The notes under the pieces are model-generated. The model worked only from the letters and a program-made list of their open reading frames with translations. It was not told where the DNA came from and did not search any database. From a virus: 37,229 nucleotides of DNA. Position 1 is the stretch's first letter. Every line of letters starts with the position of its first letter. The stretch spans positions 1 to 37,229 of the IMG/VR virus record IMGVR_UViG_3300037584_000579. One strand, written 5' to 3'. This document shows positions 1,430 to 8,756 of this stretch, one piece after another. The translations under genes were made by a program, and so were the position numbers.

Positions 1430-1674
1430 GATTTTTCTCCCTTTTCGTGGCTCGAATTTAGACTTGTATCGTTGCATGATTCAAGAGTTTTATTGCTATC
1501 ATCATAAATAATTCTTTCCAAGTATATCCCTGTTTCATTTTCAACTGCACTCAGTTCTTTTTCTACAATCCCTTCAGCGTTTAAGCCTTTGTGATAGTAG
1601 TTATCTTCGTCTACATAGACTGCTAGTTCTACTATTACTGTTTTGTAGTTGTCGTTATGATTTGTACTACTCAT
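1420..1674 (-). CDS. Hypothetical 84-residue acidic protein
   Basis: A small protein of unknown function. The N-terminal half has a beta-strand look (TVIVELAVYVDEDNYYHK), followed by an acidic helix and a polar tail. The ATG overlaps the end of the upstream amidoligase gene and is preceded by GGAGGAAG about ten bases away. Its 3' end overlaps the nuclease start by 10 bases. This puts it in a translationally coupled string between ligase and nuclease. No known domain is recognised. Confidence 0.6.
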   Translation of the reverse strand: MSSTNHNDNYKTVIVELAVYVDEDNYYHKGLNAEGIVEKELSAVENETGIYLERIIYDDSNKTLESCNDTSLNSSHEKGEKSCR

Positions 1675-2833
1675 TTACTCTTCCTCCCTTGAACTTACTA
1701 GTTCTCTTGTTAATATAATCACATAGCTCTACTCCAAAAGTACTCACCATGTGAGTAATAGGTGGTTTCTTAATCCACTTATCGTACTCATCTCCTGTGT
1801 ATCTTTCTAGGTCTATAGCCATATCTATTATGCGATTTAGTATCTGTATCCAATTAAGTATCTTGGTTTTGTTTATAGTTCCAGAGTGTAGACGGAACTC
1901 TAGAGAGCCATGATAGTATCTAGAATGTATATTAAGACCACAGTATCTAGCGTCGTTATACTTATCTGTACTAGGGTGAGAATCCATGTAATCATAATAC
2001 ATTTCTATTAACTCGCTCTCCTCTGTAATATTCCTAAGCTGTTTCTTAGGAATAGGAAAGTCTTTACACCAATTAGAACTCTGTCTAGAGTTAGGCATCA
2101 TACCTTTTAGTATCTCTTCAAAGTACCTGTATACTATTCCTACATGAGCTACTTGTCTAGCAGTTAGGTCTAATGAGTTGAAGTGTACATGTAGTCCACA
2201 ACTTCTATTAACTATTGCACCTATATTATTAGACCATGACATTAGATTATCTATACTTCCTAATAGCAGGTCTCCACTAGCAGGGTAGCTTACCATCTCT
2301 ACAGCTTCATATCCTTCTTCGCTGTTAATAGAACCATCACTTGTACTAGTCCAAAAGTTAGGTGTATCTAAAGCATCGTTATATGGGAATAGACATTCTA
2401 CTTCTACCCCTACAAGTCTACGAACAGGAAACTCAAAGGACTCTGCTTTTCTAGAACAAGCAGGTGGTTCTCTGTCATCTAAATTGTATAACATATCATC
2501 TATATCGTTAGGTACACAACTAGAACAGTAGGGATTGTCATTTCTCCAATACACCTCATCTCTATCTACAGGCTCTTCACAATCATAACAGTTCTCAAAA
2601 GATTCCCAATAGCAATGCTCACAGTAGGGGTCTTGATATGCAAAGTAAACCATATCAGTAGGCACACTTTCACTACAACTGTGACATGAGTAGAAGTTGT
2701 CATCATGACATGGTTGACAGTATCTGCTCCCATGACTTACTATAATATCTGCTCTATCTACAGAAATACCACACTCACCACACTCTGTTTGTTCAGGTGT
2801 CTCTACCACTTTTTCTCTCTCTTCAACTGGCAT
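1667..2833 (-). CDS. Amidoligase_2 family COOH-NH2 ligase with N-terminal zinc knuckles
   Basis: A 388-residue predicted ATP-dependent ligase that would join a carboxylate to an amine (GCS/glutamine-synthetase-like fold). Residues 18-106 contain three tandem CxxC...CxxC pairs (CGEC/CQPC, CHSC/CEHC, CYDC/CSSC), i.e. LIM- or zinc-ribbon-like modules. The ligase domain follows: GVEVE at 142-146, DGS at 167-169, CGLHVHF at 212-218, then GLNIHSRYYHGSLEFRLHSG at 299-318. These acidic and His motifs are the hallmark of Amidoligase_2 proteins, where they are thought to bind Mg-ATP and substrate. The ATG has AGGAG upstream. It lies two bases after a 108-residue unknown and close to a glutamine amidotransferase and a second amidoligase. 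The substrate cannot be read from sequence. Binding of peptide or nucleic acid by the zinc modules is inference. Confidence 0.85.
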   Translation of the reverse strand: MPVEEREKVVETPEQTECGECGISVDRADIIVSHGSRYCQPCHDDNFYSCHSCSESVPTDMVYFAYQDPYCEHCYWESFENCYDCEEPVDRDEVYWRNDNPYCSSCVPNDIDDMLYNLDDREPPACSRKAESFEFPVRRLVGVEVECLFPYNDALDTPNFWTSTSDGSINSEEGYEAVEMVSYPASGDLLLGSIDNLMSWSNNIGAIVNRSCGLHVHFNSLDLTARQVAHVGIVYRYFEEILKGMMPNSRQSSNWCKDFPIPKKQLRNITEESELIEMYYDYMDSHPSTDKYNDARYCGLNIHSRYYHGSLEFRLHSGTINKTKILNWIQILNRIIDMAIDLERYTGDEYDKWIKKPPITHMVSTFGVELCDYINKRTSKFKGGRVNE

Positions 2834-2834
2834 A

Positions 2835-3161
2835 CTAGACTCCTATGTTAGTAGCTTCTATAATACCAACTACAAAAGCGTTTATAACCTTCAACCAATT
2901 CATCTTCTTAAGAGTATCGTATATATCTTCTTCTAATGTATCAGAGTCTCTATCTATCTTTGCATCAATAGAACCCATTACATCTATCTGCTTGAGTAGA
3001 AAGTCTAGGTACTCCTCATAAGAGGAACCTACTAGAAAAGGATTCTTCTTAGCTCTATTATACAAAGTCTCTATCACAAACTTCTTAGACTTTAACTTGA
3101 TAGGGTTAGGAAATCCTACTAGTATAACCTTCTTCTTAGAATGAGAACCACGATCTATCAT
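2835..3161 (-). CDS. Hypothetical 108-residue protein inside the amidoligase cluster
   Basis: Unknown function. The protein has a basic N-terminus (HSKKKVILVGFPNPIKLKSKK), a helical middle with an acidic DRDSDTLEEDIYDTL stretch, and a hydrophobic C-terminus (VINAFVVGIIEATNIGV). A strong GGGAGGTG precedes the ATG. It overlaps the 3' end of the glutamine amidotransferase gene by 26 bases and is followed after one base by the first amidoligase, so it is almost certainly made together with them. It could be a partner or a substrate of the ligases, but nothing in the sequence proves this. Confidence 0.7.
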   Translation of the reverse strand: MIDRGSHSKKKVILVGFPNPIKLKSKKFVIETLYNRAKKNPFLVGSSYEEYLDFLLKQIDVMGSIDAKIDRDSDTLEEDIYDTLKKMNWLKVINAFVVGIIEATNIGV

Positions 3162-4146
3162 CTTTCACCTCCCTTTTATCTTCATTGCTATAAGAGTCTT
3201 TATCTACAAAGTACTCACAGTCAAAGCACACTCTCTTGTTATCTGCATCTGTCCATAACTCCTCTTGGTCTATCCACTCATAACAATACTCACACATATC
3301 CTTTCTACTGTCGCAGGTAGCAGGTAGAGCCATAGTAGCAGGACTTGAACCTCTAGTATACTCATCTCTCCAAGACCAACCTCCGTACATAGAAGTCTTG
3401 TAGTTGTATTGAGACAAGGTCTCAAACTGCACTTGCTCTCTGTTGGGCTTACTATTGAAGCTATCTACATCATAGGTATAGATATAGTCCTCTGCTACAT
3501 TCTTGATTGGTAGAACTAGACCAGCTCTAAGCATAGACTCTCTCATAATCTCTTTAGTAGAAGCCCAAAACAATACTCTAGCCTTCTTCCAATAAGCTAC
3601 TACCATAGGTCTACCAGACTCTCTAGCTAGGTGTACCTTTCTATTACTATCCTTTACCCATGTTAGAGCAAAGTCACCTTCTATATTCTCGAAGGCTTCA
3701 TGCATCTTGTTTCTATTAAGAGACTGAAACAATACCTGCGAGTCTACCTCGGGTACACCTTTACCCATAGACTTAGCTACTTCATTGTAGTTGTAGATGA
3801 CACCATTGTGTACACCTACTACATCTCCTACTGTAAACGGATGTGCATTAGTTACCTTTACCTTACCATGTGTAGCTAGTCTAACGTGACCCATTACAAT
3901 GGTAGTTTCTCTTGTTATTCGTGATAGAATATTAGCATCAAAGTCATGCATATCTACCAAGCTAGATGAATCTACAAGCGTCTTGTAGGTATGTCTACTA
4001 TCTGAATCAATAATAGAAAAACCTGTACTATCCGTACCACGGATAGAAGACTCATCTGTTAGCTCGGTGAACACATCTCTAAGAATCCTCATCTGATTGT
4101 TAGATTGTCTACCACTAGTCTTAGCGAATCCAAAGATTCCACACAT
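3136..4146 (-). CDS. Class II glutamine amidotransferase (Ntn-hydrolase) with C-terminal zinc knuckle
   Basis: A 336-residue protein with a GlmS/PurF-type glutaminase domain. It begins MCGIFGF, so removal of Met1 would expose catalytic Cys2. Further motifs are RGTDSTGFS, GHVRLATHG, NAHPF, HNGVI, EVDSQ and EGDFALTW, in the usual order over residues 1-165. No sugar isomerase or phosphoribosyltransferase domain follows. Instead there is a shorter C-terminal region ending in a CEYC...CFDC zinc knuckle (about residues 285-310) like those of the adjacent ligases. It could release ammonia from glutamine for an amidation, or act as an Ntn amidase/peptidase on a ligated product. AAGGAG lies upstream of the ATG, and 17 bases separate it from the second amidoligase. 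Confidence 0.88.
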   Translation of the reverse strand: MCGIFGFAKTSGRQSNNQMRILRDVFTELTDESSIRGTDSTGFSIIDSDSRHTYKTLVDSSSLVDMHDFDANILSRITRETTIVMGHVRLATHGKVKVTNAHPFTVGDVVGVHNGVIYNYNEVAKSMGKGVPEVDSQVLFQSLNRNKMHEAFENIEGDFALTWVKDSNRKVHLARESGRPMVVAYWKKARVLFWASTKEIMRESMLRAGLVLPIKNVAEDYIYTYDVDSFNSKPNREQVQFETLSQYNYKTSMYGGWSWRDEYTRGSSPATMALPATCDSRKDMCEYCYEWIDQEELWTDADNKRVCFDCEYFVDKDSYSNEDKREVKDDRSWFSF

Positions 4147-4163
4147 ACTATTTTCTCCTTTTG

Positions 4164-5984
4164 TTAGTTGTTATCTATTCTCCTGTCTATATACTCAGCA
4201 CCGAATACACCTGTTATATCTTTAAGTATATCCATAGTTGGTATTTTGTCAGAAATAATTCTGCTACAAAGCACAGGGTCTCTTTGTAATTTTGTAGCCG
4301 TTGTCATAATTCTATTGAGAAATTGTATCCACTCTTGAATAGGTCTAGAGTATATACTACCCTCATGGTATCTAAATTCTATTGTGCCTAAGTAGAACCT
4401 AGCGTGTATATTAGTACCAAAGTACCTAGCATCATTGTACTTATTATCAGTAAGGTTAGTATTAGCACCTTTGTAGTATTCGTTTACTAGATGACTTAGG
4501 CTTCTCATTCTAGATATTTTTCTAGGACTCATAGGTATTTCTTTACAATATGTATTATCTGTTCTATTACTAGGTAACCCTCTATAGATATAACCTTGCA
4601 ACCTAGACATAATCATTAGTAAAGATTGTATCTCTGTAAAGTTAAAGTCTAGTGCGTTCATATGTATATGTATACCACAGCTCTCATCTGTATAGTTATC
4701 ATCTTCTCTATGTGTCTGCTCTAGACTATCTAGTGCTTCTACTACTGTATCACCTATAATAGGCTTATGAGTTACAAACTCTACACCTCCAGAACTTAGA
4801 GAGCCATCTTCTATTACCTCAAAGTAGTCAGGCTCACCTACTGCACTTACATAGTCCTCAGAGTCATCGTAGCAAGTTATAACCTCACTTTCTATACCTA
4901 TGTATCTATTGTACTCACTCTTAGTTGCTAGTTTCATAGGTAGCCTTCTGTATCTAAAAGGACTAGCTAGATAAGACTGCAACTTTAGATCGGCACAAGA
5001 GGTGCAATATCTACGACCTAAAACATTATGATAACCTTCATGATTTCTAGCAAAGTCCATTAATAGCATTCTTCTATCAGCAGAACTTTCTGCATGTCTA
5101 AGCTTGTCAAAGTCTATTACATCAGAACATCTACAATGTTCACAAGATATAATTAGGCTCTCCCAACAAGGCTTACAACACCTAGTAATATCTAAGTCTA
5201 GGTATGTACTTTTAGTGTTTTTATCTTGTACGCTAAGTATACCTACTAAGTCAGTTAACTTGTAATCCGTATGACAAGCATCACATTTTTCTACTGTAGT
5301 ATTGTAACAAGTGTTGCAGTACTTATCTTCATTGTGTACATATGTATCAGTTACTATGTCGCTACACTTAGTACAAGCATGGTAGAGTCTGTTGCTTCTA
5401 GTATTCTTTCTAATAGCTACAGCTAATATTTGTTGCCATTCACCTTGTAGATAGAATCTATTAACAGTAGGTTCACTTACATAAGTATTATCTACAAATG
5501 TCAAATCTTGTATCTTTTTATGTAAAGGTCTAACCTCACTAGTAATTCTATATTCAGCAGTAGACAAAAGATATTCCATCATGTCTAGACTATCTTCATA
5601 TCTACTATGTAGTATATTGCTATAATAGACTGACTTATAGTTTATTTCATCTTCTACGTTATACTCAAATGTTAGATTGTACAATCGCCTATCTGAATAT
5701 AATAGATCGGTAGCTCTACATAATATTCTATTACTACCTTTTTTAGTTTCTATTAGAACACCTAGTACATACTTAGAGTTAGGATTGTCCCAATCTTCTA
5801 TCTTAGCTACGTCTAGTATCTTAGCTACTCTAGATGCTATAGTCTTAAAATGGTAAGACTGTAGAGTTCTGTCATTAGCATAGACATCGTAGTCGTAGAG
5901 AACATCTATCTCTTTGAAACTACTAGCACTAGTATACCTAGCATTAGTTGTATCTAGTAGATAGACGTCATTTGAATATAACAT
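4164..5984 (-). CDS. Second Amidoligase_2 COOH-NH2 ligase, long form with zinc knuckles
   Basis: A 606-residue paralogue of the 388-residue ligase. An unrecognised N-terminal region of about 200 residues comes first, then three zinc-knuckle pairs (CTKC/CNTC, CDAC/CKPC, CEHC/CTSC; residues 204-330). The amidoligase domain has YIGIESE at 361-367, EDGS at 392-395, CGIHIHM at 436-442 and GTNIHARFYLGTIEFRYHEG at 523-542. A shared KYNDARY motif before the last block and WIQxLNRI after it show common descent with the shorter ligase. The start has AAGGAGG six bases upstream and overlaps a 48-residue upstream frame by 17 bases. CTA dominates its leucine codons, unlike the structural genes. The roles of the N-terminal region and the substrate are unknown. 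Confidence 0.85.
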   Translation of the reverse strand: MLYSNDVYLLDTTNARYTSASSFKEIDVLYDYDVYANDRTLQSYHFKTIASRVAKILDVAKIEDWDNPNSKYVLGVLIETKKGSNRILCRATDLLYSDRRLYNLTFEYNVEDEINYKSVYYSNILHSRYEDSLDMMEYLLSTAEYRITSEVRPLHKKIQDLTFVDNTYVSEPTVNRFYLQGEWQQILAVAIRKNTRSNRLYHACTKCSDIVTDTYVHNEDKYCNTCYNTTVEKCDACHTDYKLTDLVGILSVQDKNTKSTYLDLDITRCCKPCWESLIISCEHCRCSDVIDFDKLRHAESSADRRMLLMDFARNHEGYHNVLGRRYCTSCADLKLQSYLASPFRYRRLPMKLATKSEYNRYIGIESEVITCYDDSEDYVSAVGEPDYFEVIEDGSLSSGGVEFVTHKPIIGDTVVEALDSLEQTHREDDNYTDESCGIHIHMNALDFNFTEIQSLLMIMSRLQGYIYRGLPSNRTDNTYCKEIPMSPRKISRMRSLSHLVNEYYKGANTNLTDNKYNDARYFGTNIHARFYLGTIEFRYHEGSIYSRPIQEWIQFLNRIMTTATKLQRDPVLCSRIISDKIPTMDILKDITGVFGAEYIDRRIDNN

Positions 5985-6133: not shown

Positions 6134-6556
6134 TTAGATAGGCCAATAATACTCCATGTCTATTGGCTCTTCCCATTTGTACCTAGAGTAGTAATACTCT
6201 AAGTCTTTACGTAGTAGATTGCTTCTATGAGAAGCGTGTACTCTATCATCGCCCAACCAAGTGGGCATCTCTATAGAATTTGGTAGACCTACAAGTTCCA
6301 TCGTATTGTTGTAACCTCTAAGTATCCACTCTTCTATCATCTTGTTCTTGTAGAGTAGCAACGCTTCTACATAACCATCCCACATTAGAACGGCAGGATG
6401 TCTTCTCCAACCCTTGTACTTCTTACCTTGTAGAGTTGGATTATCTACTAATACATTGTATATTTGTAATGCTTCTACTCTCTGCTTACCTAGTCTACGA
6501 TAGTCTAGCATACTAGCAGAGATAGAGAAATCTTCGTGTGGTAGAAATGTTTGCAT
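6134..6556 (-). CDS. DenV-like / MSMEG_6728 family protein (predicted pyrimidine-dimer glycosylase fold)
   Basis: A 140-residue protein matching from memory the MSMEG_6728 family, related to pyrimidine dimer DNA glycosylases such as T4 DenV. Diagnostic stretches are MQTFLPHEDF at the start, LDYRRLGKQRVEALQIY (17-33), RRHPAVLMWDGY near residues 51-62, and SHRSNLLRKD near 109-118, with a C-terminal YYWP. Length is normal for the family. A repair role at UV or abasic lesions is plausible for a sunlit-water phage, but activity in this branch of the family is not something I can assert. The stop of a 40-residue gene abuts its ATG (TAGATG). Confidence 0.8.
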   Translation of the reverse strand: MQTFLPHEDFSISASMLDYRRLGKQRVEALQIYNVLVDNPTLQGKKYKGWRRHPAVLMWDGYVEALLLYKNKMIEEWILRGYNNTMELVGLPNSIEMPTWLGDDRVHASHRSNLLRKDLEYYYSRYKWEEPIDMEYYWPI

Positions 6557-6679
6557 CTACAACCATATCCTTAGTAGTTGTAACAATATGTAGATAGGTG
6601 CTAATATAGCTAGAACCTCTCCTACATCTTCTATTCTTTCTACTATCTCTTCCATTATCTTGTCGAATCTATCTACCAT
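6557..6679 (-). CDS. Small membrane peptide, 40 aa
   Basis: A short frame with AGGAG five bases before its ATG. It overlaps the 3' end of the upstream 152-residue gene by 7 bases and ends directly before the DenV-like ATG. The first 20 residues are an amphipathic acidic helix (FDKIMEEIVERIEDVGE), followed by a hydrophobic segment (VLAILAPIYILLQLLRIWL) long enough to span a membrane. Topology and function are unknown. It may simply couple translation between neighbours. Confidence 0.55.
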   Translation of the reverse strand: MVDRFDKIMEEIVERIEDVGEVLAILAPIYILLQLLRIWL

Positions 6680-7131
6680 GTCTTCTCCTCTCTTAGTATT
6701 GGTCTAACAATTCTAGGGTCTAGAAGTCTACCTTTTCTCTTATGGTAGGTATTGTCTACTACCATTCTTCTACGAGTACTAGCCATTCTCTTAGCTTGGC
6801 GTTCTAGTGCCTCTGCTACTTCTTTTCTCTTGAGTGTAGTAGCTAGGGTAATTCTCTTGTAACTAGTTCTAGCATACTCATCATGTACATTGACTACCTT
6901 GTTCTCTTGAAACGCTTTCTGTCTGAACATTTCTATAAGCTCCCAAGTCTGTAACATAGACTTAGACATATTAGTTAGTACAATGGGATTATCTAGTGAT
7001 GAGTCATCTATATGAAGAGAATATCTACTACTGTTTTTAGAGATACGAATATCTACTGTGCCACTACTACTATATCTATATAGATCGAGTGGAGTAGGTG
7101 ATTCCATATCTACTATTATATCATCTATCAT
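6673..7131 (-). CDS. Hypothetical basic protein, 152 aa
   Basis: Unknown function. The N-terminal half is polar and Ser-rich with beta-like segments (VDIRISKNSSRYSLHIDD). The C-terminal half is strongly basic and helical (TLKRKEVAEALERQAKRMA, then RRRMVVDN and a KRKGRLLDPR tail), which suggests nucleic acid binding. The start ATG has AGAGG upstream. It is the first gene after a 134-base leader that carries repeated TAGTAGAA words and a hairpin. No family is recognised. Confidence 0.7.
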   Translation of the reverse strand: MIDDIIVDMESPTPLDLYRYSSSGTVDIRISKNSSRYSLHIDDSSLDNPIVLTNMSKSMLQTWELIEMFRQKAFQENKVVNVHDEYARTSYKRITLATTLKRKEVAEALERQAKRMASTRRRMVVDNTYHKRKGRLLDPRIVRPILREEKTW

Positions 7132-7170
7132 AATTGCCTCTACGACTTTTGTTATCTATAAAATTCGCAT

Positions 7171-7271
7171 CTACTATTTTTGCTTCTACTAGATACGAAG
7201 TCTAGAGATAAGTTTAAGCAGAAGGGCCTAGCGTTCTACTAAGCCCGTTCTACTATTTAGCCGTTCTATTT
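7171..7271 (-). repeat. Repeated TAGTAGAAC words in a leftward leader
   Basis: On the + strand GTTCTACTA occurs at 7233-7241 and 7247-7255, with a variant at 7263-7271. CTACTA occurs again at 7171-7176 and 7186-7191. On the leftward transcript these read TAGTAGAAC, in the leader of the basic 152-residue gene. They could be protein or RNA regulatory sites, or a by-product of the CTA/TAG-rich composition of this arm. Confidence 0.4.
7224..7246 (-). other. Possible RNA hairpin in leader
   Basis: GGGCCTAG at 7224-7231 pairs with CTAAGCCC at 7239-7246, with one internal mismatch and a 7-base loop. No U-tract follows on either strand, so it is not a canonical terminator. It lies between the stop of the 90-residue gene and the start of the basic protein, where a processing or stability element would fit. 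Confidence 0.35.
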
Positions 7272-7538
7272 AGAGCAATTAAGAGAGACTTTAGTTATCT
7301 CTTGTCCTGTTGGTAGGTTACTGTTCCATTCTACAAGGTTCCTATCTATTACTTCCTGCCCTTGCTCCCACCAGTCCTTAACCTCTTGGGGTGCATGGTC
7401 TAGTTTGCCGATTCTACTAGAAGCTGAAACAATGCCATTTGCAATGGCTGTATTAGTCATCTTATCTACTGTCTCTTTATCTAGTCCAGATGCTTCTAGA
7501 CCTTTCCTAAAAGCTATGTTGTTTATTTTCTTACTCAT
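7266..7538 (-). CDS. Hypothetical 90-residue protein
   Basis: Unknown function. The N-terminal half is helical (FRKGLEASGLDKETVDKMT), the middle is Ser/Gly-rich, and the C-terminal half contains DWWEQGQEVIDRNLVEW. There is no transmembrane segment or metal motif. The ribosome binding site is weak (an AGG about 15 bases upstream of the ATG). A candidate leftward promoter at 7568-7597 would make it the first gene of its transcript. Confidence 0.65.
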   Translation of the reverse strand: MSKKINNIAFRKGLEASGLDKETVDKMTNTAIANGIVSASSRIGKLDHAPQEVKDWWEQGQEVIDRNLVEWNSNLPTGQEITKVSLNCSK

Positions 7539-7558
7539 TGTTATCTATTATCCTTTTA

Positions 7559-7578
7559 TCTACTAAAAATATAGTAGA
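7559..7578. promoter_or_regulatory. Inverted repeat overlapping a -10 element (candidate operator)
   Basis: TCTACTA (7559-7565) and TAGTAGA (7572-7578) are perfect 7-base arms around a 6-base spacer. They sit on top of the candidate leftward TATATT at 7568-7573, where a bound repressor would block the promoter of the 90-residue gene. Confidence 0.4.
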
Positions 7579-7597
7579 TTTGTTTGTTTGATTTAAA
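7568..7597 (-). promoter_or_regulatory. Candidate leftward sigma70-type promoter
   Basis: Read leftward, a TTTAAA -35-like element (7592-7597) is separated by 18 bases from TATATT (7568-7573). The -10 and the 18-base spacing match the three stronger promoters in this window; the -35 is weak. It would drive the 90-residue gene and perhaps the whole leftward cluster. Confidence 0.4.
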
Positions 7598-7633
7598 ACG
7601 TATTTTCATGGCCTTAATGTACAGCAGTCAGCC

Positions 7634-7656
7634 AAAAAAACAAATATTGTATTTGT
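7634..7656 (-). terminator. Stem with T-run, possible leftward terminator
   Basis: Perfect 7-base arms ACAAATA (7640-7646) and TATTTGT (7650-7656) around TTG. On the leftward strand the stem is followed by a run of six further T (complement of 7634-7639). The stem is AT-rich and therefore weak, so an operator is an alternative. It would end transcripts from the 77-residue gene. Confidence 0.35.
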
Positions 7657-7732
7657 AGTTTATTATTCGTAACTTCAGGACTTTTTGCCTATTAGATAAG
7701 AATGAGACTCAATCTCAATAAGAATAAGTGGT

Positions 7733-7865
7733 GACGTATAGGTAAGGTAGCTGACGTAAACGTAAGGTAAGTAACGTAATAGTAAGTTGTATTACCTTAA
7801 CGTAAAGAATCTAACTAAAAAGTCAGTTTTCTAACGTAAACGGAATTTTACTTTCGCTAACGTAA
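7733..7865 (+). repeat. Array of TAACGTAA-type repeats (iteron-like)
   Basis: ACGTA-centred repeats begin at 7734, 7754, 7760, 7774, 7800, 7834 and 7860, all in the same orientation. Four are exact TAACGTAA (7772-7779, 7798-7805, 7832-7839, 7858-7865); the others are GACGTA(A) or partial. Spacings are 20, 6, 14, 26, 34 and 26 bases. The 9-mer CTAACGTAA also occurs inverted at 8591-8599, in the leader behind the leftward promoter. Direct repeats of this kind typically bind an initiator or repressor. Confidence 0.6.
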
Positions 7866-7907
7866 GGGGGGGCTATGCCGCAAATAAGAGGCACACACAA
7901 ATTGGTG

Positions 7908-7924
7908 CTATTTTTTAAAAATAG
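7908..7924. repeat. All-AT palindrome
   Basis: CTATTTTTTAAAAATAG is self-complementary apart from its central base. It lies just past the stop of the 77-residue gene. It lacks GC pairs, so a rho-independent terminator is unlikely; DNA bending or melting near an origin is possible. Confidence 0.35.
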
Positions 7925-7934
7925 GTAGTTTAAG

Positions 7935-8168
7935 TTAGCTACAAGGGTATAGATTTCCTGTATATTCCGGTGTATCTAGTATTTCTAACTCATCTGCGTT
8001 TTGTAGTCTGCTTACTATTTCTGCTAAATCATAGCGTACTTTGCTAGATGCATCTATAGTGTCTGTAATACTGAGGTTCTTTGCTAGTTTGATAGCTTCG
8101 TTAATATTCTTGAAGCTTGATTCTTCTCGCCAATGGTTATCCATGGCCTTTTCCATTGTAGTTTTCAT
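7935..8168 (-). CDS. Hypothetical 77-residue protein
   Basis: Unknown function. Acidic and mostly helical (INEAIKLAKNLSITDTIDA, then DLAEIVSRLQNADELEIL), with a short C-terminal tail ending YPCS. The ATG has an AAAGGG/GAG-like region 4-12 bases upstream. A 169-base spacer separates it from the next upstream gene. That spacer holds a TATATT on the leftward strand but no convincing -35, so whether it has its own promoter is unclear. Confidence 0.6.
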   Translation of the reverse strand: MKTTMEKAMDNHWREESSFKNINEAIKLAKNLSITDTIDASSKVRYDLAEIVSRLQNADELEILDTPEYTGNLYPCS

Positions 8169-8337: not shown

Positions 8338-8574
8338 TTAGTCCATTTTGATAGATTTTTCCCCTGTTTTCGTATCCACTAAATAGTACAAATAATCTAA
8401 TATCTCGTCTTTTGCTTCACTTCCCCTGACTCCAGCTACTTTTGTTACTTTTTCTACCTCATATCCTTTATCTAGGACATCTGCTATCTCTTCCCACTTA
8501 GCTTCTTTAAATAACTTATCTAGGTCTAAGTCATCTTGTGGTAGTAATAGTAGTGATGTTAGTAATATTCCCAC
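8338..8574 (-). CDS. Hypothetical 78-residue protein, first leftward gene
   Basis: Unknown function. GTG start. After a Leu-rich N-terminus (GILLTSLLLLPQDDLDLDK) comes an acidic helical body with EIADVLDKGYEVEKVTKVAGV and a DEILDYLYYLV segment. The start lacks a good ribosome binding site (only AAAGAAAGAAA). It is the first gene behind the leftward half of the divergent promoter, with a leader of about 78 bases that carries an inverted repeat and a tandem 9-mer. This position suits a small regulator, but no HTH is evident. Confidence 0.6.
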   Translation of the reverse strand: MGILLTSLLLLPQDDLDLDKLFKEAKWEEIADVLDKGYEVEKVTKVAGVRGSEAKDEILDYLYYLVDTKTGEKSIKMD

Positions 8575-8587
8575 TTTCTTTCTTTTA

Positions 8588-8605
8588 ATATTACGTTAGT
8601 AATAT
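8588..8605. promoter_or_regulatory. Inverted repeat containing a CTAACGTAA site (candidate operator)
   Basis: ATATTAC (8588-8594) and GTAATAT (8599-8605) form perfect arms around GTTA. The site includes the 9-mer CTAACGTAA on the leftward strand (8591-8599), the same word found in the repeat array at 7831-7839 and 7857-7865. It lies in the leader of the first leftward gene, downstream of its promoter. Confidence 0.45.
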
Positions 8606-8618
8606 ATTTTCTTTCTTT

Positions 8619-8636
8619 ACTAAGTAAACTAAGTAA
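8619..8636. repeat. Tandem 9-mer in the leftward leader
   Basis: ACTAAGTAA is repeated twice without a gap (8619-8627, 8628-8636). It lies just downstream of the predicted leftward transcription start, where a bound protein could block elongation. A chance origin in AT-rich sequence is possible. Confidence 0.35.
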
Positions 8637-8658
8637 CTCCCGGGCTTAAGTCCCTAAT

Positions 8659-8688
8659 AATATACTAATCAAAGTACACAAAAAGCAA
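8659..8688 (-). promoter_or_regulatory. Leftward promoter of the divergent pair
   Basis: Read leftward, TTCTTGCTT gives a -35 of TTGCTT (8683-8688), then 18 bases, then TATATT (8659-8664). Spacing and -10 are identical to the two rightward promoters at 8715-8744 and 13002-13031, and all three share TTCTTG at the -35. It should drive the leftward arm. Confidence 0.65.
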
Positions 8689-8714
8689 GAACTATTTTAA
8701 AATAAATTAATTTC

Positions 8715-8744
8715 TTGACATATTTATACTTATGTTTATATATT
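8715..8744 (+). promoter_or_regulatory. Rightward promoter of the divergent pair
   Basis: A perfect TTGACA (8715-8720), an 18-base spacer and TATATT (8739-8744). The -35 boxes of the two divergent promoters are 26 bases apart across an A+T-only stretch that could serve as a shared UP element. The predicted start near 8751 leaves only about six bases before the ATG at 8757. Confidence 0.75.
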
Positions 8745-8756
8745 CAGGCACGGTAT

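Follow-up and report, generated by a model that had tools for sequence, protein, structure and literature searches.

What is the function of an array of short direct repeats in a gene-free slot of a marine phage genome, and which protein would read it? The array lies in a window of 37,229 nucleotides (the whole stretch analysed; positions 1 to 37,229 of IMG/VR record IMGVR_UViG_3300037584_000579), which covers part of the circularly mapping genome (~46 kb) of a marine phage that lacks cultured relatives. Contig L016 (46,159 bp) represents the same phage, is permuted relative to the window and adds the 6.2 kb missing from it. This extra part encodes a DnaB-type helicase (PF03796, 5.5e-51), a RusA/Hjc-like nuclease and a 67-aa winged-helix HTH_39 protein. 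The window itself encodes TerL (PHROG 38), a portal protein, an SU10-type capsid protein, two Amidoligase_2 proteins, a class II amidotransferase and a pyrimidine-dimer glycosylase. A polymerase did not appear in the set of proteins searched. TerL shares <30% identity with that of any cultured phage; its relatives are encoded on 333 IMG/VR stretches, and none was found as a prophage or MAG in the GTDB genomes scanned. The minus-strand genes run leftward from 8574 round to dnaB and the plus-strand (late) genes rightward from 8715. Within the former, positions 1667-2833, 3136-4146 and 4164-5984 encode the two Amidoligase_2 proteins, with zinc/LIM-like N-terminal parts, around the class II glutamine amidotransferase, and together these genes (1667-5984) are a peptide- or surface-modification cassette. 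The heptamer TCTACTA is over-represented in the window (33 copies vs 13.8 expected), with 12 copies clustered in 1.2 kb (6400-7600), often by minus-strand gene starts.

A preliminary description made from the sequence had reported seven same-orientation ACGTA repeats, four of them exact copies of TAACGTAA, and this count was borne out. The seven ACGTA all lie inside 7734-7864, and the four exact copies, the only ones on the plus strand of the window, start at 7772, 7798, 7832 and 7858. A fifth exact copy is located at 8591 on the minus strand. For the whole window 0.58 copies are expected (sd 0.77), and five copies were reached in none of the shuffles. Equally correct were the gene-free setting, with no ORF of at least 60 aa in the slot, and the G7 tract and AT palindrome (CTATTTTTTAAAAATAG at 7908-7924) beside the array. 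The term 'iteron-like' for an array of 8-mers held for the architecture (20-bp helical phasing, a single locus, family-wide occurrence) but not for the unit, which is ~20 bp rather than 8. Units start at 7732, 7752, 7772, 7798, 7812, 7832 and 7858, giving steps of 20, 20, 26, 14, 20 and 26, and TRF detected a period of 20 at 7732-7786. No phased repeat in this phage's complete genome scores higher than the array (z 7.1; runner-up 5.1). Close copies of the dyad or 20-mer motifs elsewhere in the window are limited to TAACGTAA at 8591 and a match within the TerS gene. The single 15-nt dyad to the left of the array, overlooked by the preliminary description, is an array-forming element in relatives. 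All features are listed in Table 1.

Table 1. Features of the array locus and its surroundings (positions in the window)
Feature	Position	Strand	Basis or remarks
First gene of the minus-strand early operon	7266..7538	-	Occurs in variants whose exchange does not follow the array type
Gene-free slot, bounded by the leading gene of the main minus-strand operon and by the 77-aa minus-strand ORF	7539..7934		ORF list; same slot in 36 distinct relatives
Promoter region of the early minus-strand operon	7541..7702		Promoter assignment in the window itself is inferred
Single 15-nt dyad TGAGACTCAATCTCA (7-1-7)	7703..7717		1-6 copies, mostly at ~33-44 bp spacing, in relatives
Seven degenerate direct repeats of ~20 bp forming the array, TAACGTAAACGTAAGGTANC-like	7732..7865	+	Repeat counts, TRF, lag-20 test
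G7 tract	7866..7872		All relatives have a G:C homopolymer tract here, as a C-run in 8/36
Tail block TATnnCGCAAATAAGrCTyACACACAATyTnnGGCTATTTTTT plus AT palindrome	7873..7924		Conserved in relatives
77-aa ORF adjoining the array	7935..8168	-	Family-wide, 42-97% aa identity
Ultra-conserved non-coding element in the divergent gap, upstream of the 78-aa minus-strand ORF	8583..8645		Near-identical in ~27 relatives with any array type

Extraction of the slot from all relatives yielded 36 distinct versions. The order from left to right is common to these 36 loci: the promoter region comes first, then 0-6 dyads TGAGACTCAATCTCA or a CRP-like site, then direct repeats with a 20-bp period, and finally a G:C tract and a conserved 45-bp block closed by a T-run, which is conserved in the relatives at 6-8 residues. 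This layout is retained at one locus though the proteins diverge to ~45-60% identity. Over all array types, autocorrelation at lag 20 has a z of 25.9, with lag 20 being the best in 26 of the 36 distinct arrays, and an AAC core is repeated exactly 20 bp upstream in 25/35 arrays (background 0.67). Based on the repeats, 35 arrays were divided into the ACGTA type (6), the TCGAA type (21) and others (8), a few of the latter consisting of nearly all dyads plus one terminal unit. Across the relatives, the numbers of dyads and 20-mers trade off. The preliminary description had named missing conservation in relatives as part of its refutation. Conservation of the exact TAACGTAA repeat is confined to the closest subset (the 6/35 of the ACGTA type). 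The 8-mer is not the conserved unit: phasing and layout are conserved, the sequence is not, and counting an 8-mer alone picks the wrong unit.

In this compound cis-acting site, which is common to a family of marine tailed phages without cultured members, no module varies more than the array. The array also varies within a population, because one complete-length contig of 46.4 kb, which closes through the array, joins two different array alleles at its ends. Contig 3300030101_002855 (63,940 bp; L025/L050 and L176/L178) carries both TerL and the array of this family twice, in different versions, and is probably a chimeric or concatenated assembly. In the slots L186, L189 and L200, some dyads are Fur-box-like (e.g. 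TTGAGAATCATTATCAA in L186), which points to a Fur-type host regulator as a candidate.

In relatives without dyads, the left part of the slot was compared with the general consensus sequences of CRP sites and of -35/-10 boxes. The perfect CRP-like site TGTGAN6TCACA is present at eight loci (7/36 distinct arrays and one further locus) against 0.012 expected. On the plus strand, a -35 box follows 16 nt past this site, TTGCTT or TTGACT in seven and a weak box in L046, with a -10 box, mostly TATAGG, 17 nt after it. On the minus strand, TTGACT is found 16 nt past the site in six; L192 has a weaker box, and L046 is truncated at this point. The pattern on one strand was dropped as a family-only trait since many viral contigs have it. 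In a viral-contig scan, the symmetric layout on both strands was the only one that stood out and, among the matches listed, it occurred in members of this phage family only. From this two-strand spacing it follows that those relatives have a divergent promoter region in the left part of the slot, with one predicted arm for the early minus-strand operon and the other into the array. The promoter region of relatives has either a conserved TTCGTAAaTTCAGG box with dyads, the first dyad being at a near-fixed distance from the TTCGTAA box, or the CRP-like site with symmetric divergent promoters. The window lacks the CRP-like site and has one TGAGAC dyad TGAGACTCAATCTCA in its place; promoters in the window itself are putative.

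Next, the protein that reads the array was considered. A search for a phage-encoded initiator or repressor, as proposed in the preliminary description, was not rewarded: no initiator was recognised, and the repeat sequence does not covary with any phage protein. The window phage and G003, which has a TCGAA-type array and no dyads, share a helicase of 99%, a 137-aa protein of 97%, an HTH_39 protein of 97%, a TerS of 98% and a TerL of 99% identity, so that nearly identical helicase, terminase and HTH proteins accompany different array types. G009 has the same ACGTA array as the window phage together with far more diverged proteins. As the array is swapped without protein change, the reader would be a host protein, or a phage protein reading only the shared degenerate core. 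A phage initiator or TerS as the cognate protein was rejected based on these 97-99% identities across array types. The first operon gene was rejected as the cognate regulator as well, with L007 and L009 having the same gene and different arrays, and L005 and L009 the same array and different genes. Its variants are poorly similar, have a common C-terminal S[LIV]N[CIV]NK-like end and are exchanged by recombination between close relatives. No initiator in cis (Rep or O-like) was retrieved among the PHROG/Pfam matches, and PHROG, Pfam and fold searches with the gene next to dnaB were all empty. A role of p137 as helicase loader was not retained (model pLDDT of 77, no fold match), and the structure model of p77 is poor (pLDDT 69).

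Based on the above, we read the array as an iteron-like origin/control element beside early promoters, with a probability of roughly 40% and with the origin role being putative. Iteron origins combine helically phased direct repeats with an adjoining AT-rich region (PMC5043065), and lambda has transcriptional activation in addition (PMC7466680). In the proposed mechanism, a protein, either host-encoded or a conserved phage protein reading only the degenerate AAC core, would bind the 20-bp-phased sites on one face of the helix, next to the G:C tract and the AT-rich tail block. The neighbouring divergent promoter would drive the early operon leftwards, and in relatives also transcription rightwards into the array, and might help DNA opening. 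The bound protein could then nucleate melting and loading of the phage DnaB-type helicase, coupled to early transcription. At least three direct repeats of 17-22 bp in helical phase are indeed present. A cognate initiator in cis and DnaA boxes by the iterons were looked for and not found, and the locus is therefore not assigned to a known origin family.

A skew switch near the array had been anticipated; the GC-skew switch lies at 8575-8756, 0.7-0.9 kb off, at the boundary of gene orientation. In 31 relatives, genes 7935-8168 and 8338-8574 have a minus-type skew (-0.09 and -0.24), and the right side has +0.19. Since the switch follows gene orientation and lies away from the array, GC skew was discarded as origin evidence. 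The least stable DNA nearby is found at 8645-8744 and 7521-7580. The stability of the array itself is not unusual and its flanks are not the least stable DNA of the genome, 8645-8744 being less stable; the AT palindrome and T-run (7908-7924) lie by the array, and segment 7521-7580 is ~150 bp off. Between 7.5 and 8.8 kb, no match to the DnaA-box consensus TTWTNCACA was found.

The initial choice between a replication origin and a regulator array was the right short list, with origin function neither shown nor excluded. The main rival of the iteron-like reading is accordingly an operator or enhancer array, in which dyads and 20-mers bind host or phage transcription regulators of the early minus-strand promoter and its divergent partner, and replication starts elsewhere. 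It fits the promoter data equally well and is a possibility to be taken seriously, if still a doubtful one. The slot is directly upstream of the long minus-strand operon, the dyad-less relatives have perfect CRP-like sites with -35 boxes at a constant 16 nt (one of them weak on the plus strand; on the minus strand where readable), and the near-fixed first dyad and the trade-off between dyads and 20-mers point the same way. Type switching without protein change is also what would be expected for host-regulator sites. However, the 20-mers lie beyond the plus-strand promoter, 60-150 bp from the early promoter, ordinary operators need no strict 20-bp phase, G:C tract or tail block, and the window has no further close motif copies besides the two mentioned above. 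Overlapping and compatible with the operator reading is the view that the ultra-conserved element at 8583-8645 is the true origin and the array only regulatory, which we consider unlikely. This candidate origin or operator is composed of CTTTCTTTT-ATATTACGTTAGTAATAT-TTCTTTCTTT-TACTAAGTAAACTAAGTA, with the minus-strand TAACGTAA (8591-8598) inside its palindrome ATATTACGTTAGTAATAT. Its near-identity regardless of array type, its position at the skew and orientation switch and its place among the least stable DNA of the window all speak for this view, but the element is also compatible with a 5'-leader operator or a hairpin belonging to the 78-aa gene and with the divergent promoter, and a check of the most distant relatives did not find it.

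Two other readings involve the G:C tract and the T-run. A short plus-strand non-coding RNA or replication primer, starting at the divergent promoter, crossing the array and ending at the T-run (7911-7916) in the manner of ColE1 RNA II or an R-loop, would explain why the plus-strand promoter of relatives (TTGCTT-N17-TATAGG) reads into the array and why a conserved T-run of 6-8 ends the block. It is nevertheless quite improbable. The C-run variants include some that keep the plus-strand promoter, so an RNA G-tract is not required, and these variants disfavour an R-loop or G-quadruplex primer; moreover, no hairpin is consistently found ahead of the T-run and plus-strand folding is near chance (mean z -1.1). 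A structured non-coding RNA was rejected on this value and on the lack of any matching Rfam family for the array region, the minus-strand z of -2.5 being attributed to the palindromes. Highly improbable is a packaging site, with the G:C tract as a cohesive end (cos) or the array as a pac site whose repeats are bound by the small terminase. The GC-rich tract of ~5-12 bp in a 36% GC genome with repeats adjoining, the TerS-like gene ~2.3 kb downstream and three contigs terminating within the tract would suit it. Against this, most long contigs pass through the tract with ends spread over ~0.9 kb or elsewhere, closure of the 46.4-kb contig runs through the array, where two alleles co-exist, and TerS is 98% identical between phages of different array types. 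Fixed genome ends at a cos site do not agree with contigs that are circularly permuted and have scattered ends. An attP site was rejected with no integrase among the proteins searched.

A broader idea, which is rather unlikely as a whole, is that the repeat modules (ACGTA, TCGAA, TGAGAC dyads, CRP-like sites) are swapped under selection for spacing, G:C tract and tail block, and that different host DNA-binding proteins instead of a phage initiator switch on early transcription and replication. If modules are swapped without change of phage protein, host factors would decide where or when the phage starts. This would link the host regulator repertoire to phage host range and give a handle for naming the host. 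The slot is in any case a concrete, testable control site for a marine phage family without cultured members.

Compared to known systems, the CRP-like loci resemble CRP-dependent class I divergent promoters in that several relatives have TGTGAN6TCACA at 16 nt from the -35 box of either strand; the window phage differs by its TGAGACTCAATCTCA dyad. Like the plasmid iteron origins of P1, F, RK2, pSC101 and R6K, the array has helically phased ~20-bp direct repeats at one locus, with a putative AT-rich element beside them (PMC5043065). Unlike these, the phage locus has no Rep gene or DnaA box found, its repeats are highly degenerate and exchanged between close relatives, and a strand-neutral G:C tract and a conserved tail block are added. 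With the ori of lambda and lambdoid phages (O iterons) it would share multiple initiator-type sites by an AT-rich stretch, nearby transcription and phage-linked helicase loading (PMC5043065, PMC7466680). In contrast to lambda, the array is not within an initiator gene and no O-like or P-like protein was recognised; the phage has its own DnaB-type helicase, and its sites are direct repeats, with the dyads forming a separate sub-array.
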